Shown: positions 29,835 through 36,259, counted from the first letter of the stretch. The stretch is DNA of 36,259 nt from Candidatus Cloacimonadota bacterium (GCA_012516855.1 JAAYWB010000020.1:1-36259), one strand, 5' to 3'. Program-made: numbers and translations. Notes: generated by a model not told the origin, from the sequence alone.

Positions 29835-30758
29835 ATGAATTCGCTTGTTATTGATCCTGGCTGCAAACCAACGGCATACATTTTTATTAACTGCTTGGAA
29901 ACAGGGTTTGCCAAGCCAAGAAAAAGCTTGACCGTTTATCCTGAAATATTTTCGCTGGTATTCAGGCGCTCCGAGCGCTGGATAATGGAAAAGCTAATGA
30001 ACAAAAGCTTGGATATTCAAAGCTTTTTGGTCTTGCTTGGCGAATGCACCGATTCAGGTAATTGCGGCTATCAGGTACTGCTAGGCTGGGCTGGAAACAT
30101 CATTCGCTCAAGTTCTGCTCCCAAAGCAGACACAGAAGAGTTGTGCGACACAGTCAGAGGACTGGTCCACTCATTCATTCTGAAGAAAATTCCCACTATC
30201 TCCAATCATATCCAGAATAATAGAGGTGTATTCAATAAATACCAGATTGCCAGATATGTAAAAGTATCATTGCTTAATTACTACAGAAGCCACTGGAAAC
30301 TGGAACTGGGTTTGGAAGCTAGGCTGAAGCGCGAGCAGCAATTTCAGAAACAGCAACAGGACAAAGAGCAAAAATCCCGCTCAGCAGAATATGATCGTTT
30401 GACGGAATTAAAAGAACCAGGCTGGGAAATGCCCAAAGACGATTTGGATCAGGAATTTGTGGTCGAGAGTTTATTGCGCAGCAGGGGAAATCATGTCATT
30501 TATGAACTGATGTCAGGCCTTCCTGGCCGGCTAAAGCGTTATATATTTTTCGCTTATTCCAACCGTGACCCCAATATCTACCCAACTAAAAATCCAGTTG
30601 CCGCCCGTAAGGAGCAAAGCCTGTCAAAGCTGGCCCTTCAGAGTTTTATTACCCGTCACAAGCTTCAGGAATTCGAGATCTACTACTTTTTACGGTCCCT
30701 TCCCGGTCAGATCTTTTTGGCAGAACTCAAACAACAATTTGGAGTTGGCAATGCCTGA
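29835..30758 (+). CDS. Divergent sigma-70-like protein
   Basis: The 307-residue protein is not recognised with certainty. Residues about 105-151 contain VHSFILKKIPTIS and FNKYQIARYVKVSLLNYYRS, which resembles sigma region 2, where the usual form is a YL...LARNLAIDYLR helix. Residues about 214-270 (VIYELMSGLPGRLKRYIFFA, then a Lys/Arg-rich helix) resemble region 4. An Arg/Gln/Lys-rich linker at 160-185 separates them. The helix-turn-helix signature is weak. The start has no strong ribosome site (GACTGAGAG before ATG). The next gene overlaps it by eight bases, as in sigma and regulator pairs. The alternative is an unrelated helical nucleic-acid-binding protein. Confidence 0.6.
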   Translation: MNSLVIDPGCKPTAYIFINCLETGFAKPRKSLTVYPEIFSLVFRRSERWIMEKLMNKSLDIQSFLVLLGECTDSGNCGYQVLLGWAGNIIRSSSAPKADTEELCDTVRGLVHSFILKKIPTISNHIQNNRGVFNKYQIARYVKVSLLNYYRSHWKLELGLEARLKREQQFQKQQQDKEQKSRSAEYDRLTELKEPGWEMPKDDLDQEFVVESLLRSRGNHVIYELMSGLPGRLKRYIFFAYSNRDPNIYPTKNPVAARKEQSLSKLALQSFITRHKLQEFEIYYFLRSLPGQIFLAELKQQFGVGNA

Positions 30759-31878
30759 GACAGACTATCGCAAGCTGTTTGAGCTCTATCTCTTTGAGAA
30801 CAGACTCGTGCGGAAAGCTGTCGCGGATGATGAAGCTGCAGCCATCTTGGCAGGCCTTAGCATTCCGGATAACACCAATGACCAGCAGAAAAAAACCAAC
30901 AGAAAGATCGAGCCGGGAGGCATCTATTGCCACGTGGGTGAGGACTGCTGCCTGGAATACTTGGTCCTGGAACAAAACAATGGCACTTGGCTGGTCTTGA
31001 AAATCTCAGGCTGGATTGACTTTGCTGACCAATACGATCTGATTTTCAGCCACGATGATGAACCCAAAATGATCCAGCTGCGCAACGCGGCTTTCGTCCT
31101 GCCCGATAAAATTGAACAATCACTATATTTGGGCAATGCGGGTGGCGACATTCTGAAGCAGATCAAAACCACTCTGCTGGAGAAAGACCGCGTCGCGGAA
31201 GACAGCAGCGGAGCTGAACTCCCACTCAAATGGAGATTCTTCCAACAGCGCTTTCACAGCATTGAAGCCGACCAGATGCAGCAATATCTGCACCACGACT
31301 GGAAAAACCAGCCCCTGCCGGTTCCGCTACCGCTTCCGGAGTCCTTATGTAAACAAGAAGCAGCACCTAAATCAACGTTGGATATTATGAGATCATGTAC
31401 TCACGGTCTGGATTCCCTGGACAAAGGAGCTCTTGAATGGTACACTTATTTGCATGCAGAAAATCGATTATTATTAGCCACGGCAATCGATCCTAAATAT
31501 GTGTGGTATAATGCTCTAAGCACAGCACTAATAAAAAGTATTCGGAAATTCTTGTCAGGTTCTGTGCCTAATTCTGTCCAAAGGATATCAAAGATAGTAG
31601 AGAACCATGGTATTTCCATCCTCTATACATCTCCCTGGGCTCTGATCTGGCCAGCCTTGAAAGATACGACATGGAATGGCTTCAGTTACTATAAAGTACC
31701 GTCAGGTGACATCATCTTGAAGATCAATCCAATTCTGGTCGGCAAAGAAGCGCAGATCAAGATTAAAGACAAAGTGGTATTCGATGGAGCACTTAAACCA
31801 GTCTTCAGCCTTGGAAGCGATATTACGGACAGCGAAAATGATCTGTCAGATTCTATAAAGATTAAAGTATCACAATAA
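30751..31878 (+). CDS. Unrecognised partner of the sigma-like protein
   Basis: A 375-residue soluble protein. The start at ATG 30751 is inside the end of the upstream gene, with GGAG seven bases before it, and begins MPETDYRKLFELYLFENRLV; the frame upstream of it belongs to the sigma-like gene. No membrane helix or signal is seen. The N-terminal helix (about 5-35) is followed by a beta-rich part (EPGGIYCHVGEDCCLEYLVL, near 55-75), with two adjacent cysteines at DCCLEY. A hydrophobic-beta C-terminus (ILKINPILVGKEAQIKIKDK) follows. Strict overlap suggests a protein that works with, or holds back, the sigma-like protein. No family name can be given. Confidence 0.65.
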   Translation: MPETDYRKLFELYLFENRLVRKAVADDEAAAILAGLSIPDNTNDQQKKTNRKIEPGGIYCHVGEDCCLEYLVLEQNNGTWLVLKISGWIDFADQYDLIFSHDDEPKMIQLRNAAFVLPDKIEQSLYLGNAGGDILKQIKTTLLEKDRVAEDSSGAELPLKWRFFQQRFHSIEADQMQQYLHHDWKNQPLPVPLPLPESLCKQEAAPKSTLDIMRSCTHGLDSLDKGALEWYTYLHAENRLLLATAIDPKYVWYNALSTALIKSIRKFLSGSVPNSVQRISKIVENHGISILYTSPWALIWPALKDTTWNGFSYYKVPSGDIILKINPILVGKEAQIKIKDKVVFDGALKPVFSLGSDITDSENDLSDSIKIKVSQ

Positions 31879-31898
31879 CAAACACAAAAGGAGACGAC

Positions 31899-32339
31899 AT
31901 GTTCCTTCACAAATTCACAAAGGAAGAACAAATCAAGTCATTTTTTGCATTGGTCGCAAAGATAGTCAATGCGGATGGTGTAGTGAGTAACATGGAGAAA
32001 CAAACTCTTGCTGCTTATTCACTCGAAATGAAGCTTAACAAGAAATCAATATCCTCTTCTAAAATGGATGCAATTTTATCACAATCCCATGAAGCAAAAT
32101 CTCTTGATGAATTATTAAAACCATTTCTTAAAGCGAAGGGTTCAGTAAAAAAAGCTCTTATCTTTGAGTTACTATTTGCGGCAATATGTGATTCAGAGTA
32201 TCCAGAAGTCGAGATATTACTGGTGAAAAATATAGCGTATGCTTTAGGGATCAATGACATCTTATTGCATGGATTGCAGTTTATTGTGGAAAACATACAC
32301 AATTACTCAATTCAGGCAGAATTGATTGTAGGAAATTAG
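31899..32339 (+). CDS. TerB-like protein
   Basis: The 146-residue all-helical protein begins with HKFTKEEQIKSFFALVAKIVNADGVVS; the AKIVNADGVVSNMEKQTL block matches the metal-binding TerB signature (helix, ADG loop, then an acidic residue). A second helical half contains LIFELLFAAICDSEYPEVEI, which repeats the ADG-type loop as CDSEYPEVE. TerB-like domains occur in tellurite-resistance and many stress or conflict gene clusters, near membranes. The ATG follows AGGAG with a gap of 20 bases after the upstream stop. The next gene starts eight bases after this stop. Confidence 0.7.
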   Translation: MFLHKFTKEEQIKSFFALVAKIVNADGVVSNMEKQTLAAYSLEMKLNKKSISSSKMDAILSQSHEAKSLDELLKPFLKAKGSVKKALIFELLFAAICDSEYPEVEILLVKNIAYALGINDILLHGLQFIVENIHNYSIQAELIVGN

Positions 32340-32347
32340 GAGGAATA

Positions 32348-33391
32348 ATGCCTTTACCAATCATTGTCCCAATCATCATTGGATTAGGTGGTGTGTACGG
32401 TGCAGGAAGGTCAATAAAAGCTGGTATTGACGTCCATAAGGCAAAGAATATAAACAGAGAAGCTACTGACATTATTTGCCGTACCCAAAAGAAGCAATAC
32501 AGGCATCGTTCATCAGCAAGGAAAGGTCTAAGTGAACTGGCCAAAACAAAAGCGGTAATCCTAGCAGGCTCAATGAAGAACTTCATTAATGAGTTTGAAA
32601 AAATAAAAGACGTCGATTTTAGGCGTAGTGTTGGTCTAGATGAGATGAAAATTATCCATGAATTCATTGGAGACATTAATGAAACAAAAGAACTATCTGA
32701 ATTTGCCACATCTCTTATAACAGGAGGCCTAGCTGGAGCTGGGCTTGGTTCCCTTGTTGCTTTTGGGGCCTATGGGGCGACTACTGCCTTAGCAGTAGCA
32801 AGTACGGGGACAACAATATCAACGCTTAGTGGTATTGCAGCTACCAACGCAACCTTGGCCTGGATTGGAGGTGGGACTTTGGCTGCCGGAGGATTTGGAG
32901 TTGCGGGAGGGGCTGCGATCCTAGGAATAATGGTTGCCGGCCCTGCAATTGCTGTCATGGGTTTAGTCGCTGGAGCTCGGGCATCAAAAATGTTAAATGA
33001 TGCATATTCAAATCTAGCAACGGCCAAAAAAACCAAGAAAAAAGTTGACGTTATTTGTTTGAAACTAGACGAAGTAAAGAATAGGTCTGAACAGTTGAAT
33101 TCATTACTTCGCAGGATAGACGTCTACTTTATCCAATCCATAAATTCTGTTAAGAGTGTAATAGATAAACGCGGAAGTGATTGGAGAGACTATGATGAAG
33201 CATCTAAAAAGAAGGTCTTCCTGAGCGTAAAACTAGCACAATTACAAAAGGCTCTTCTGGATACCCCGATTTTGTTAAAATCAGGTAAACTTTCAATCAA
33301 ATATAATAAATCAATTAGTTATGTCGAACAAGAACTGCAATCACATGAGGTAAGTGGTGCAAAAAAAGGAAATAAAAGAAAAACAGAATGA
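32348..33391 (+). CDS. Glycine-rich membrane protein with basic coiled coil
   Basis: The 347-residue protein starts with a hydrophobic segment (LPIIVPIIIGLGGVYGAG). A charged helical part runs to about residue 115. Residues about 121-211 are a long Gly/Ala-rich hydrophobic tract (GGLAGAGLGSLVAFGAYG, GGFGVAGGAAILGIMVAG) like glycine-zipper membrane segments. A lysine-rich coiled coil follows from about 212 to 260, then a helical C-terminus ending KKGNKRKTE. The ATG follows AGGAGG. The overlap with the next gene and the eight-base gap before it put it firmly in the cassette. It may be a pore or membrane anchor; no named family is recognised. Confidence 0.7.
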   Translation: MPLPIIVPIIIGLGGVYGAGRSIKAGIDVHKAKNINREATDIICRTQKKQYRHRSSARKGLSELAKTKAVILAGSMKNFINEFEKIKDVDFRRSVGLDEMKIIHEFIGDINETKELSEFATSLITGGLAGAGLGSLVAFGAYGATTALAVASTGTTISTLSGIAATNATLAWIGGGTLAAGGFGVAGGAAILGIMVAGPAIAVMGLVAGARASKMLNDAYSNLATAKKTKKKVDVICLKLDEVKNRSEQLNSLLRRIDVYFIQSINSVKSVIDKRGSDWRDYDEASKKKVFLSVKLAQLQKALLDTPILLKSGKLSIKYNKSISYVEQELQSHEVSGAKKGNKRKTE

Positions 33392-34913
33392 TACCGTGCG
33401 AAACATTATTTCTGCCACTACTGGACAGGAAGTAGTTGATCGTTTCGGAAGAGCAGCTTCAGAATATGTCAAGTCCTACAATGGATGGGATCCCAACAAA
33501 GAAAGCCTTTTTAGGGGTCTAAAACAAATATCTCAAAGCCGTATTGACTCCAATTATGAATATCAAAACATAAAGCAACAAGCTGGTTTTTCGGCTGAGG
33601 TTGTTCACGTAAGTCGCGGCAATGCAGAAAGGATTATTAATAACAAACTGAGTAGGTTGGCTAGAACTGAAGATTTGGGGCTGGTTAATGATCCCCAAAC
33701 CGACATACTGGAATTAAACAGCAAAGGACAAATCATACCTGGTTCTGAATCACAAATGAAATTCAAGGGGAGGTTTTCAACTCCGAGAGAGATCAAACAG
33801 AGCGTAAAACAGAATATAAATATATTAGTTAATAATAAATATTACCACAAGTACTCGAAGCAAAAGATATTGATTCCAGGAGAGCAATATAGCTTGCTAA
33901 AAGAAATGACAAGCCAAGAAGCTCAGAAATTGAAAATAAAAGCGAGCGCATTTCGCAAAGAAGGTCTCGAGAAGAAAGCTCAGCTACTAGAAAATAGGGC
34001 TGCCAGACTAGAAGATGTGAATAATAGAGTTAAGAAAAGCCACCTTACCTCTAGAGAGGCGATTTATGCGAGATTATTTCCTAAGAGATTTACTGCAAAA
34101 GAAATATTATCGACATCACATAAGGCAGGCTTGATACAATTGCAAAATGCTGCAATCATTGGGAGTTCAATCTCATTAATCCAGAACATGTCTGCTTACT
34201 ATAAGCATGAAAAAGAACTTAAAGGTGCACTAAAATCTATATCGAAAAATACATTAAACTCAGCTTTAATGGGATATGTCACTGGCGGGGCTGGAACAAC
34301 AATTAAGGCATTGTGCGAAAACTCGCATAAGGCTATTCTGAAAAATGTTTCTAAATCTAACCTACCCGCCATAATTGCTGTATCGGTGGTTGAGCTAACA
34401 AAATCCGTGCGTTCACTGATACTAGGTAATATAGATGGCATTCAGTTTTTAGAGGAAATAGGAGAAAAGGGTAGTGGTTTAGCTGCTTCGTCCATGGGAG
34501 CGGCAATAGGACAAGTTTTATTACCCGTGCCGGTTGTTGGAGCTTTAGTCGGTAGCATGGTTGGATATTCAATGAGTTCAATATTCTACCAACAGACTCT
34601 CTATGCTCTAAAGGAAGAAAGACTTTCTAAAGCCAGAAGAGCAAACATTGAATACTATTGTGAATCAGCTATAAAATACATGGATAAATATGAGGCTTAC
34701 CTAAAGAATGTTTTTAGATCAAGAGCAATTAAGGACAATAAAACTATTAGATTGTTCTTTCAAGAATTTGAGCAAGCAATACAAAAAAATGATATTGAGA
34801 TGTTCACTGCTTCAGTGTGTGACTTAGCATTGCATTTTGGACATGTTTTGCAATTCCAAACTCTTGAAGAATTCAACTGGTTTATGCTTAGTGACGAACC
34901 ACTGAAATTATGA
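33357..34913 (+). CDS. Large protein with GFSAEV nuclease-like N-region and glycine-rich hydrophobic C-half
   Basis: This 518-residue protein starts at GTG 33357, six bases after GAGG; a GTG at 33354 is the alternative. The N-terminal region contains GFSAEV (77-82), then NDPQTDILEL (about 111-120), then SESQMKFKG (about 130-138). E81, D116 and the Q-x-K pair at 133-135 are spaced as in PD-(D/E)xK nuclease folds, but this is a pattern seen by eye, not a proven homology. A basic coiled coil covers about 180-230. Residues about 258-412 are hydrophobic and Gly-rich, with GLAASSMGAAIGQVLLPV and VVGALVGSMVGYSMSS. The end is helical. It overlaps the previous gene by 35 bases and is the last cassette gene. 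Confidence 0.65.
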   Translation: MQKKEIKEKQNDTVRNIISATTGQEVVDRFGRAASEYVKSYNGWDPNKESLFRGLKQISQSRIDSNYEYQNIKQQAGFSAEVVHVSRGNAERIINNKLSRLARTEDLGLVNDPQTDILELNSKGQIIPGSESQMKFKGRFSTPREIKQSVKQNINILVNNKYYHKYSKQKILIPGEQYSLLKEMTSQEAQKLKIKASAFRKEGLEKKAQLLENRAARLEDVNNRVKKSHLTSREAIYARLFPKRFTAKEILSTSHKAGLIQLQNAAIIGSSISLIQNMSAYYKHEKELKGALKSISKNTLNSALMGYVTGGAGTTIKALCENSHKAILKNVSKSNLPAIIAVSVVELTKSVRSLILGNIDGIQFLEEIGEKGSGLAASSMGAAIGQVLLPVPVVGALVGSMVGYSMSSIFYQQTLYALKEERLSKARRANIEYYCESAIKYMDKYEAYLKNVFRSRAIKDNKTIRLFFQEFEQAIQKNDIEMFTASVCDLALHFGHVLQFQTLEEFNWFMLSDEPLKL

Positions 34914-35134: not shown

Positions 35135-35416
35135 TTGAAAGAGATTACAATCAGATACTATACAAGGGAGGAACTGCGAAGCAGGGGTGTTTTTGATCGG
35201 TGGTCAATGTGGGTGAAGATCGTAAGAAAAAATGATTGTGAAGTCCATCACGAAGCTTCAGAAGAGATCTATATCCTTAAAGGCTCTGGTTGTATTGTGA
35301 CCAAAACTGGAGAGGTGCACTACATCAGAGCGGGCAACCATCTCACGATCAGTAGTGGTGTGAGACTAATGTGGCATATTAGCAGGGCCATAACTTATAA
35401 ATCAAGATGTTACTAA
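35135..35416 (+). CDS. Small cupin-domain protein
   Basis: The 93-residue protein starts at TTG with AGGGGG four bases upstream. It holds a single cupin fold: VHHEASEEIYILKGSGCIV matches the first cupin motif with two histidines and a glutamate, and GEVHYIRAGNHLTI the second. The last part (WHISRAITYKSRCY) ends abruptly, so it is near the minimum for a cupin. A ligand-sensing or metal-binding role is likely. The peptidase-like gene follows 10 bases later, so the two are probably co-transcribed. Confidence 0.7.
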   Translation: MKEITIRYYTREELRSRGVFDRWSMWVKIVRKNDCEVHHEASEEIYILKGSGCIVTKTGEVHYIRAGNHLTISSGVRLMWHISRAITYKSRCY

Positions 35417-35426
35417 AGGAGAAAAC

Positions 35427-36095
35427 ATGTTAAAACGACAAGACCGCTTCATGAACAATGAACTCTTGGGGTTCATATCCCGTCCACAGTACGAAAACAG
35501 CTGCTCGATGTCCTCATTGACAGCTGTGATCAATTACCTATTCTCAGACCAGATTGGCATCAAAACAACCAAAGAATGGGCTGAAGAAATTGAAGCCCCG
35601 GACCCGGAAGAACCATTGAGCCCTGGCAACGAAACCATGATGAGTTGGTTTAAACTAGTCTGCGAGCACTACGGAGTGGAAGGAAAGTGTGACTATTTCA
35701 TCTGCGACGAAGACGTGGAGGATTGGGATGACAATCCCAAAGTAATCACCAAATTGAAAAAAGCGATCAAGAGCAAAAAACAGGCATTGATCTATCATTT
35801 GGATAATCACTACAACGTCATAGTCGGATATTTTGAGCATGCTACCGATCCAGATAAAGCTTATGACCCCGACGCTCAATTGCAACGATGGATAGTTCTT
35901 GGGGAACACTCAGACTACAATAGATTGGAAGATTTCCCAGCTATTAATAAAATACTGGAAATTCTTAAACGGGGAGACAGATACAACCTACTTTATGACA
36001 GATGCACGGCGCCCGTCTGGAGCATCAGATGGAGAACTATCCGTCATGATCTGATCAACACGCCCAACCATTGCATCCTTATGTTTGAAAAGTAA
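35427..36095 (+). CDS. C39/papain-like cysteine peptidase
   Basis: The 222-residue protein has no signal peptide or membrane helix. RPQYENSCSMSSLTAVINYL supplies a Gln21 oxyanion-hole residue and a Cys26 nucleophile, separated by four residues as in papain-like enzymes of the C39 type. LDNHYNVIVGYFEHA gives the catalytic His128, with the third residue probably in RWIVLGEHSD. C39 proteases usually process leader peptides next to ABC exporters; none is present here. The ATG follows AAGGAG. It lies 10 bases after the cupin gene. It could instead be a non-peptidase hydrolase such as a transglutaminase-like amidase. Confidence 0.62.
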   Translation: MLKRQDRFMNNELLGFISRPQYENSCSMSSLTAVINYLFSDQIGIKTTKEWAEEIEAPDPEEPLSPGNETMMSWFKLVCEHYGVEGKCDYFICDEDVEDWDDNPKVITKLKKAIKSKKQALIYHLDNHYNVIVGYFEHATDPDKAYDPDAQLQRWIVLGEHSDYNRLEDFPAINKILEILKRGDRYNLLYDRCTAPVWSIRWRTIRHDLINTPNHCILMFEK

Positions 36096-36192: not shown

Positions 36193-36259
36193 ATGAGAAA
36201 GATTCAAGTAAGCGACACCTTGCCGGCATCAGAACTCAAACGTCGGATGCTAAGTAGCA
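36193..36259 (+). CDS. 5' end of a partial gene, possibly an IS630-type transposase
   Basis: An ATG with GGAGG five bases upstream opens a frame that runs off the window after 22 codons: MRKIQVSDTLPASELKRRML. This resembles the start of IS630-type transposases, where a short leader is followed by a Leu-x-x-Arg stretch. The visible part is too short to be sure. An insertion-sequence end in the 36096-36180 AT-rich gap cannot be confirmed. Confidence 0.4.
   Translation, partial: MRKIQVSDTLPASELKRRMLSS

Follow-up and report, generated by a model that had tools for sequence, protein, structure and literature searches.

A CalpT-type gene pair next to a candidate PDC-M09 phage-defence operon in a Candidatus Cloacimonadota genome

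The window analyzed here, i.e. the whole stretch of 36,259 nucleotides from a Candidatus Cloacimonadota bacterium (GCA_012516855.1 JAAYWB010000020.1:1-36259), carries a compact cassette of five genes directly past the enolase gene. ORF calling recovered all five genes, with the coordinates, overlaps and short gaps that an earlier sequence-only reading had described:

29835-30758, plus strand: g1, 307 aa, in the position of a CalpS (sigma factor) gene, upstream of and overlapping the CalpT-like gene
30751-31878, plus strand: g2, 375 aa from the ATG at 30751, overlapping g1 by 8 nt, homologue of the CalpT anti-sigma factor family
31899-32339, plus strand: g3, 146 aa, 20-nt gap after g2, TerB-domain protein
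32348-33391, plus strand: g4, 347 aa, 8-nt gap after g3, matching PDC-M09A
33354/33357-34913, plus strand: g5, 518-519 aa, 35-38 nt overlap with g4, GTG start behind GAGG, matching PDC-M09B

Shine-Dalgarno-like sequences precede g2, g3, g4 and g5, and chance ORFs are excluded for these genes because their homologues are conserved. Directly past enolase the GC content drops from about 0.58 to 0.36-0.46, and the post-enolase DNA in the two closest relatives is GC-rich and unrelated to the cassette (one relative gives 1.2 kb only), which together place the cassette in a foreign, AT-rich stretch. Since the contig ends at 36259, more downstream genes may be missing. Downstream in the same AT-rich stretch (35135-36095), two more proteins are encoded, one a small cupin and the other, of 222 aa, weakly matching a peptidase C39-like family. 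No usable match to g1, g2, g4 or g5 came from PHROGs, NCBIfam or Pfam, and the weak NheB, thrB and ArsC matches were rejected as composition or coiled-coil matches. Searches of plasmids, phages and viral contigs with g1, g4 and g5 returned no phage or virus match, the sole matches being one Azospirillum and one Ruminococcus plasmid.

Judged by comparison of the predicted proteins, the cassette is a union of two modules, g1-g2 and g3-g5. The second of these is, by the same kind of comparison, a member of PDC-M09, an uncharacterized candidate phage-defence system of PADLOC-DB 2.0, which no paper in the literature searched mentions by name and for which no experiment was found there. The profile matches cover most of the length of both proteins (g4 against PDC-M09A, PDLC04406/04407, E 8.9e-30 and 2.2e-27; g5 against PDC-M09B, PDLC04408/04409, E 5.4e-14 and 1.4e-13), and the two genes are adjacent and overlapping. 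The TerB-like label given earlier to g3 held up, in that the protein scores 24.2 bits against PF05099 (E 4e-5), just under the 24.4 cut-off, and clusters by BLASTP with Megasphaera TerB proteins encoded beside g5 homologues, one of which scores 34 bits; none of the PADLOC families matched g3.

Relatives of g5 were collected by a peptide-pattern scan of 84,980 species genomes, which yielded 53 loci in, going by the titles of the records, Bacillota, Bacteroidota, Pseudomonadota, Spirochaetota, Actinomycetota and other phyla. Locus contents were read from gene calling and profile searches, and the 52 loci with a usable B gene were counted. An A gene accompanied B in 48 of these, a CxxCxxCC (PF03692) protein in 29, a TerB-like protein in 28 and a WYL protein in 20; TerB, CxxCxxCC and WYL were Pfam-confirmed in examples, some of the shorter middle genes being TerB by iterated profile only. 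These frequencies indicate that A and B form a real conserved unit which TerB often joins. The usual order is WYL-B-(TerB)-A-CxxCxxCC, with B before A in 46 of 48 loci, and the placement of TerB varies (before B in Megasphaera, after the CxxCxxCC gene in L027). The TerB-A-B order of the cassette is rare, since A precedes B in only 2 of the 48 other loci, and neither a WYL nor a CxxCxxCC gene was found with it. No CalpT gene was detected near other g5 homologues, no PDC-M09 gene was seen in the CalpT neighborhoods read, and the five-gene combination was met once only. The sequence-only reading had proposed neighborhood co-occurrence as a check on the cassette: A, B and TerB do recur together, but the complete set was found only here, as halves of two known kinds, and what is new at this locus is their join. 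Among 121 neighbors of g5-family loci we found no recurring defence family, and as this survey had no control set, enrichment in defence islands is not claimed.

Several relatives of the operon deviate from this pattern. Minimal versions carrying PDC-M09A (L008 2432-4218, L009 6960-8785 and L010 8391-10216) encode beside it a small protein with repeated 'G...YY/HHINGvk' motifs, as well as a protein of 141-147 aa that matches only the C-terminal end of B and has no nuclease domain. Another operon type (L013 3124-9311, L073 and L076) consists of a 542-aa gene, a gene for an ATP-binding protein of about 1000 aa and then B, without A. A possibly related architecture (L022 3072-8578) has, after a WYL regulator, an LRAT/NlpC-like protein, two dynamin-like GTPases that carry glycine-rich hydrophobic segments and a TerB-like ORF.

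The two hydrophobic, glycine-rich proteins recognized from the sequence are g4 and g5, with the following features:

32726-32983, plus strand: glycine-rich hydrophobic segment of g4, about residues 127-212 (hydropathy peaks at 177-212; low pLDDT at 127-206)
33597-33761, plus strand: putative nuclease active-site span of g5, E82, D117, Q134 and K136 (alignment and model)
34491-34574, plus strand: hydrophobic segment of g5, residues 380-407 (hydropathy above 1.6)

In the alignment of the g5 family, E82, D117, Q134 and K136 are identical in 53 of 53 sequences. Conservation at residues 71-79 is biased because these were part of the search pattern; the four residues lie outside it. The AF2 model of g5 (mean pLDDT 80.6, about 90 or higher over most of the N-domain) has an alpha-beta-beta-beta-alpha-beta topology (H66-95, E101-104, E118-121, E133-135, H144-159, E171-174), placing E82 on the first helix, D117 at the second strand and the QxK residues Q134 and K136 on the third strand. 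These invariant residues and the modeled topology bear out the earlier suggestion of a nuclease-like N-region, and support a PD-(D/E)XK-like domain, putatively a nuclease, ahead of a helical hydrophobic C-terminal half. Whole-model Foldseek searches of g4 and of g5 returned no significant match, so that the PD-(D/E)XK assignment rests on motif and topology. In the AF2 model of g4 (pLDDT 68), long helices flank the glycine-rich hydrophobic segment, the central part being of low confidence. An alpha-pore-forming toxin fold (AhlB/ClyA-like) was considered for g4 because such chains recur among its Foldseek results, and was rejected for lack of a significant match (best E 0.3, TM about 0.2). Common ancestry of the membrane halves of g4 and g5 is not claimed, as hhalign gave only 24.9%, and PDB matches of the profiles to prion and PDCD10 were set aside as low-complexity or coiled-coil noise.

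The sequence-only reading had called g1 sigma-like and g2 its partner, and of the two it is the partner that proved informative, whereas the sigma-like character of g1 was not borne out by its sequence. The g2 product matches the PADLOC family CRISPR-T (E 9.8e-7), aligns by hhalign to eleven CalpT proteins (probability 97.5, E 5e-12; the unrelated g4 gives 0.1%) and is the sole match among 1090 ORFs to an HMM built from these eleven (E 3e-16). By these two independent comparisons, hhalign and HMM, g2 is a homologue of the CalpT anti-sigma family, the similarity covering an N-terminal as well as a C-terminal block; the CalpT alignment itself had a single PDB match, 8b0u_D 'CalpT10' (E 0.012). 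The blocks and a break between them are located as follows:

30751-31236, plus strand: N-terminal CalpT block of g2, residues 1-162 (HMM domain 1, i-E 6e-13, single-sequence search)
31345, plus strand: composition break in g2 at codon 198, GC3 0.63 before and 0.38 after (change-point test, permutation p 4e-4)
31681-31872, plus strand: C-terminal block of g2, region of CalpT10, residues 311-374 (HMM domain 2, i-E 4e-8)

By the same test, g1, g3 and g5 are free of a break of this kind. Falling at the linker, the break in g2 suggests separate histories for its 3' (sensor) half and its 5' half.

CalpL, CalpT and CalpS are the Lon protease, anti-sigma factor and sigma factor associated with type III CRISPR (PMC11417357, PMC12751052). 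CRISPR-T matches, some of them weak, occur in 17 of 123 genomes of the phylum, and we read eleven of the neighborhoods, among them one false match (L109). A related genome (L080) has a type III CRISPR locus in which a gene with a better CRISPR-T match is flanked by an HTH/sigma gene and a SAVED-Lon protease gene, an arrangement that identifies the three as CalpS-CalpT-CalpL. Complete triads are also present in L104, L106 and L107; the genes on either side are kinase- and dehydrogenase-like, and the stretch read around each triad showed no CRISPR genes. CalpL is absent from the window and from the host genome (a draft assembly, 98.8% complete); the same search detects it in 7 of 12 related genomes. 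The motif AAA[D/R] is present in the linker of all seven CalpL-linked CalpT proteins, at residues 203-215, versus none of five unlinked ones, namely four CalpTs without CalpL and g2, in which the linker is extended. Cutting at this motif would give predicted fragments of 23-25 and 10.6-11.3 kDa, close in size to CalpT23 and CalpT10 as published (PMC12751052), and from these sizes AAA[D/R] may be the CalpL cleavage site. The four CalpT-like genes in genomes without CalpL (L102 in G006, L103 in G003, L105 in G010 and L108 in G002) encode longer linkers without AAA[D/R], a CRISPR-free Calp branch inside one genus, and in L102, L103 and L105 a CalpS-like gene precedes them. No type III CRISPR locus was present among the window ORFs read near the cassette. 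The host genome has one on another contig (L118 4310-17091, G000 contig 58), which encodes a GGDD-containing Cas10-like protein, is preceded by a gene for a protein resembling RtcR-type sigma54 activators and is followed by two related proteins of 542-553 aa.

The 307-aa frame of g1 overlaps g2, in line with L080 and L099-L107, where the CalpS gene, in the same order, runs into or adjoins that of CalpT. An identification of g1 as CalpS by sequence was rejected, both hhalign (0.1%) and HMMER (-1.6 bits) showing no similarity to the CalpS set, and the sequence searches detected no homologue. From position, overlap with g2 and size we infer that g1 is a sigma factor; no promoter recognized by it could be identified.

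The supposition that no described system has this gene set has to be revised, as g4 and g5 correspond to the catalogued PDC-M09A/B, which turn up together with TerB across many phyla, and g2 is a CalpT-family protein. From other PDC-M09 loci the cassette differs in its A-B order, in TerB lying directly upstream, in lacking WYL and CxxCxxCC genes and in the CalpT-type pair in front. It resembles the Calp systems in the homology of g2 to CalpT and in the order and overlap of g1 and g2, but the putative effector genes g3-g5 occupy the place where CalpL would be, and CalpL, the AAA[D/R] linker, a CRISPR locus in cis and a recognizable CalpS are missing. The phage-defence systems Shango and Bunzi contain TerB (PMC10952713, PMC10250203), and share this component with the cassette. 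However, g1-g5 gave no match to the ATPase and helicase that accompany TerB in Shango, nor to BnzA/B of Bunzi; in L027 the tail of the CxxCxxCC protein is weakly BnzA-like (E 1.5e-5), possibly a distant domain link only. EACC2-caspase systems, sigma-coupled conflict systems with an ECF sigma factor and DUF1822 (PMC8195603), offer a parallel in concept, the coupling of a sigma factor with a partner inside a conflict system, but the cassette has no caspase or EACC domain and g2 no DUF1822 match.

The reading we prefer, to which we give not quite an even chance, is that a PDC-M09 effector operon (TerB, A and B) is controlled by the CalpT-type sigma/anti-sigma pair g1-g2, the pair having, on the best reading, replaced WYL as the controller. 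Two observations are counted for such control: the 20-nt gap between g2 and g3 with its Shine-Dalgarno sequence, and the upstream position of a CalpT pair in a cassette that lacks the WYL gene found near A/B in 20 of 52 loci. As long as the cell is at rest, g2 would bind and block g1. A signal, probably a protease or partner other than CalpL that acts on the C-terminal part of g2 and on its rebuilt linker, would free g1, which could then drive transcription from the cassette's own promoter. At the membrane, a helical hydrophobic anchor would hold the putative PD-(D/E)XK nuclease domain of g5, with g4 as the glycine-rich helical partner of g5 and TerB (g3) in an accessory role as sensor or adaptor. 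Upon entry of a phage or other mobile element, the products would most likely destroy the invading DNA or kill the infected cell. We infer the defence role from PADLOC candidate status, patchy distribution, foreign composition, the nuclease motif and the CalpT link, and the resemblance to a defence module perceived in the bare sequence has held up, with a regulator pair, a TerB protein and two hydrophobic proteins, one of them nuclease-like.

As the joined set is a single instance, chance adjacency is a serious rival, and we grant it a considerable though lesser than even probability. Two independent modules, a CalpL-less CalpS/T-type pair and a self-sufficient PDC-M09 operon, would then have come to lie in one AT-rich island, the pair regulating genes elsewhere or decaying and the operon simply reading through from it. 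CalpL-less CalpS/T-type genes do stand alone in G002, G003, G006 and G010, PDC-M09 operons elsewhere have WYL or no regulator, and GC3 is 0.48 in g1 versus 0.31-0.33 in g3-g5. Against this, the 3' half of g2 shares the low GC3 of g3-g5, the PDC-M09 copy here comes without a WYL gene, and the junction of g2 and g3 is short and furnished with a ribosome-binding signal. A role outside defence, in which TerB and the glycine-rich proteins answer metal or membrane stress in an envelope-maintenance operon under ordinary sigma/anti-sigma control, seems to us improbable. The names of the Pfam domains TerB and CxxCxxCC suggest metal or redox sensing and many homologous loci sit among housekeeping genes, but the distribution is patchy (5 of 125 genomes of the phylum), the surroundings are an AT-rich island, the nuclease-type residues are invariant in a PADLOC candidate system and, in this analysis, CalpT-family regulators were otherwise seen in CRISPR or CalpL settings. 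Least probable by far is a true Calp system, with CalpL in a missing part of the draft or past the contig end and g3-g5 as CalpS targets. The contig does stop at 36259, and cyclic oligoadenylate is plausible because the host type III locus has a GGDD Cas10-like protein; an assembly of such completeness without CalpL speaks against it, however, as does the absence from g2 of the AAA[D/R] found in every CalpL-linked CalpT examined.

If g1-g2 do control the operon, the locus would represent a transcriptional immune switch linked to a defined effector. On a broader view, which we consider less likely than not, the anti-sigma switch of type III CRISPR exists in a CRISPR-free form, in which the CalpT-like proteins of the genus have lost or replaced the CalpL linker; wired here in cis to a membrane nuclease operon, it would form a sigma-controlled immune module that works without a protease or answers to a different trigger, and whose sensor half can be exchanged. 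For PDC-M09, the analysis supplies the complete set of genes, a predicted active site and a testable regulator, and it suggests that the sigma/anti-sigma switch of type III CRISPR may also occur in CRISPR-independent circuits.
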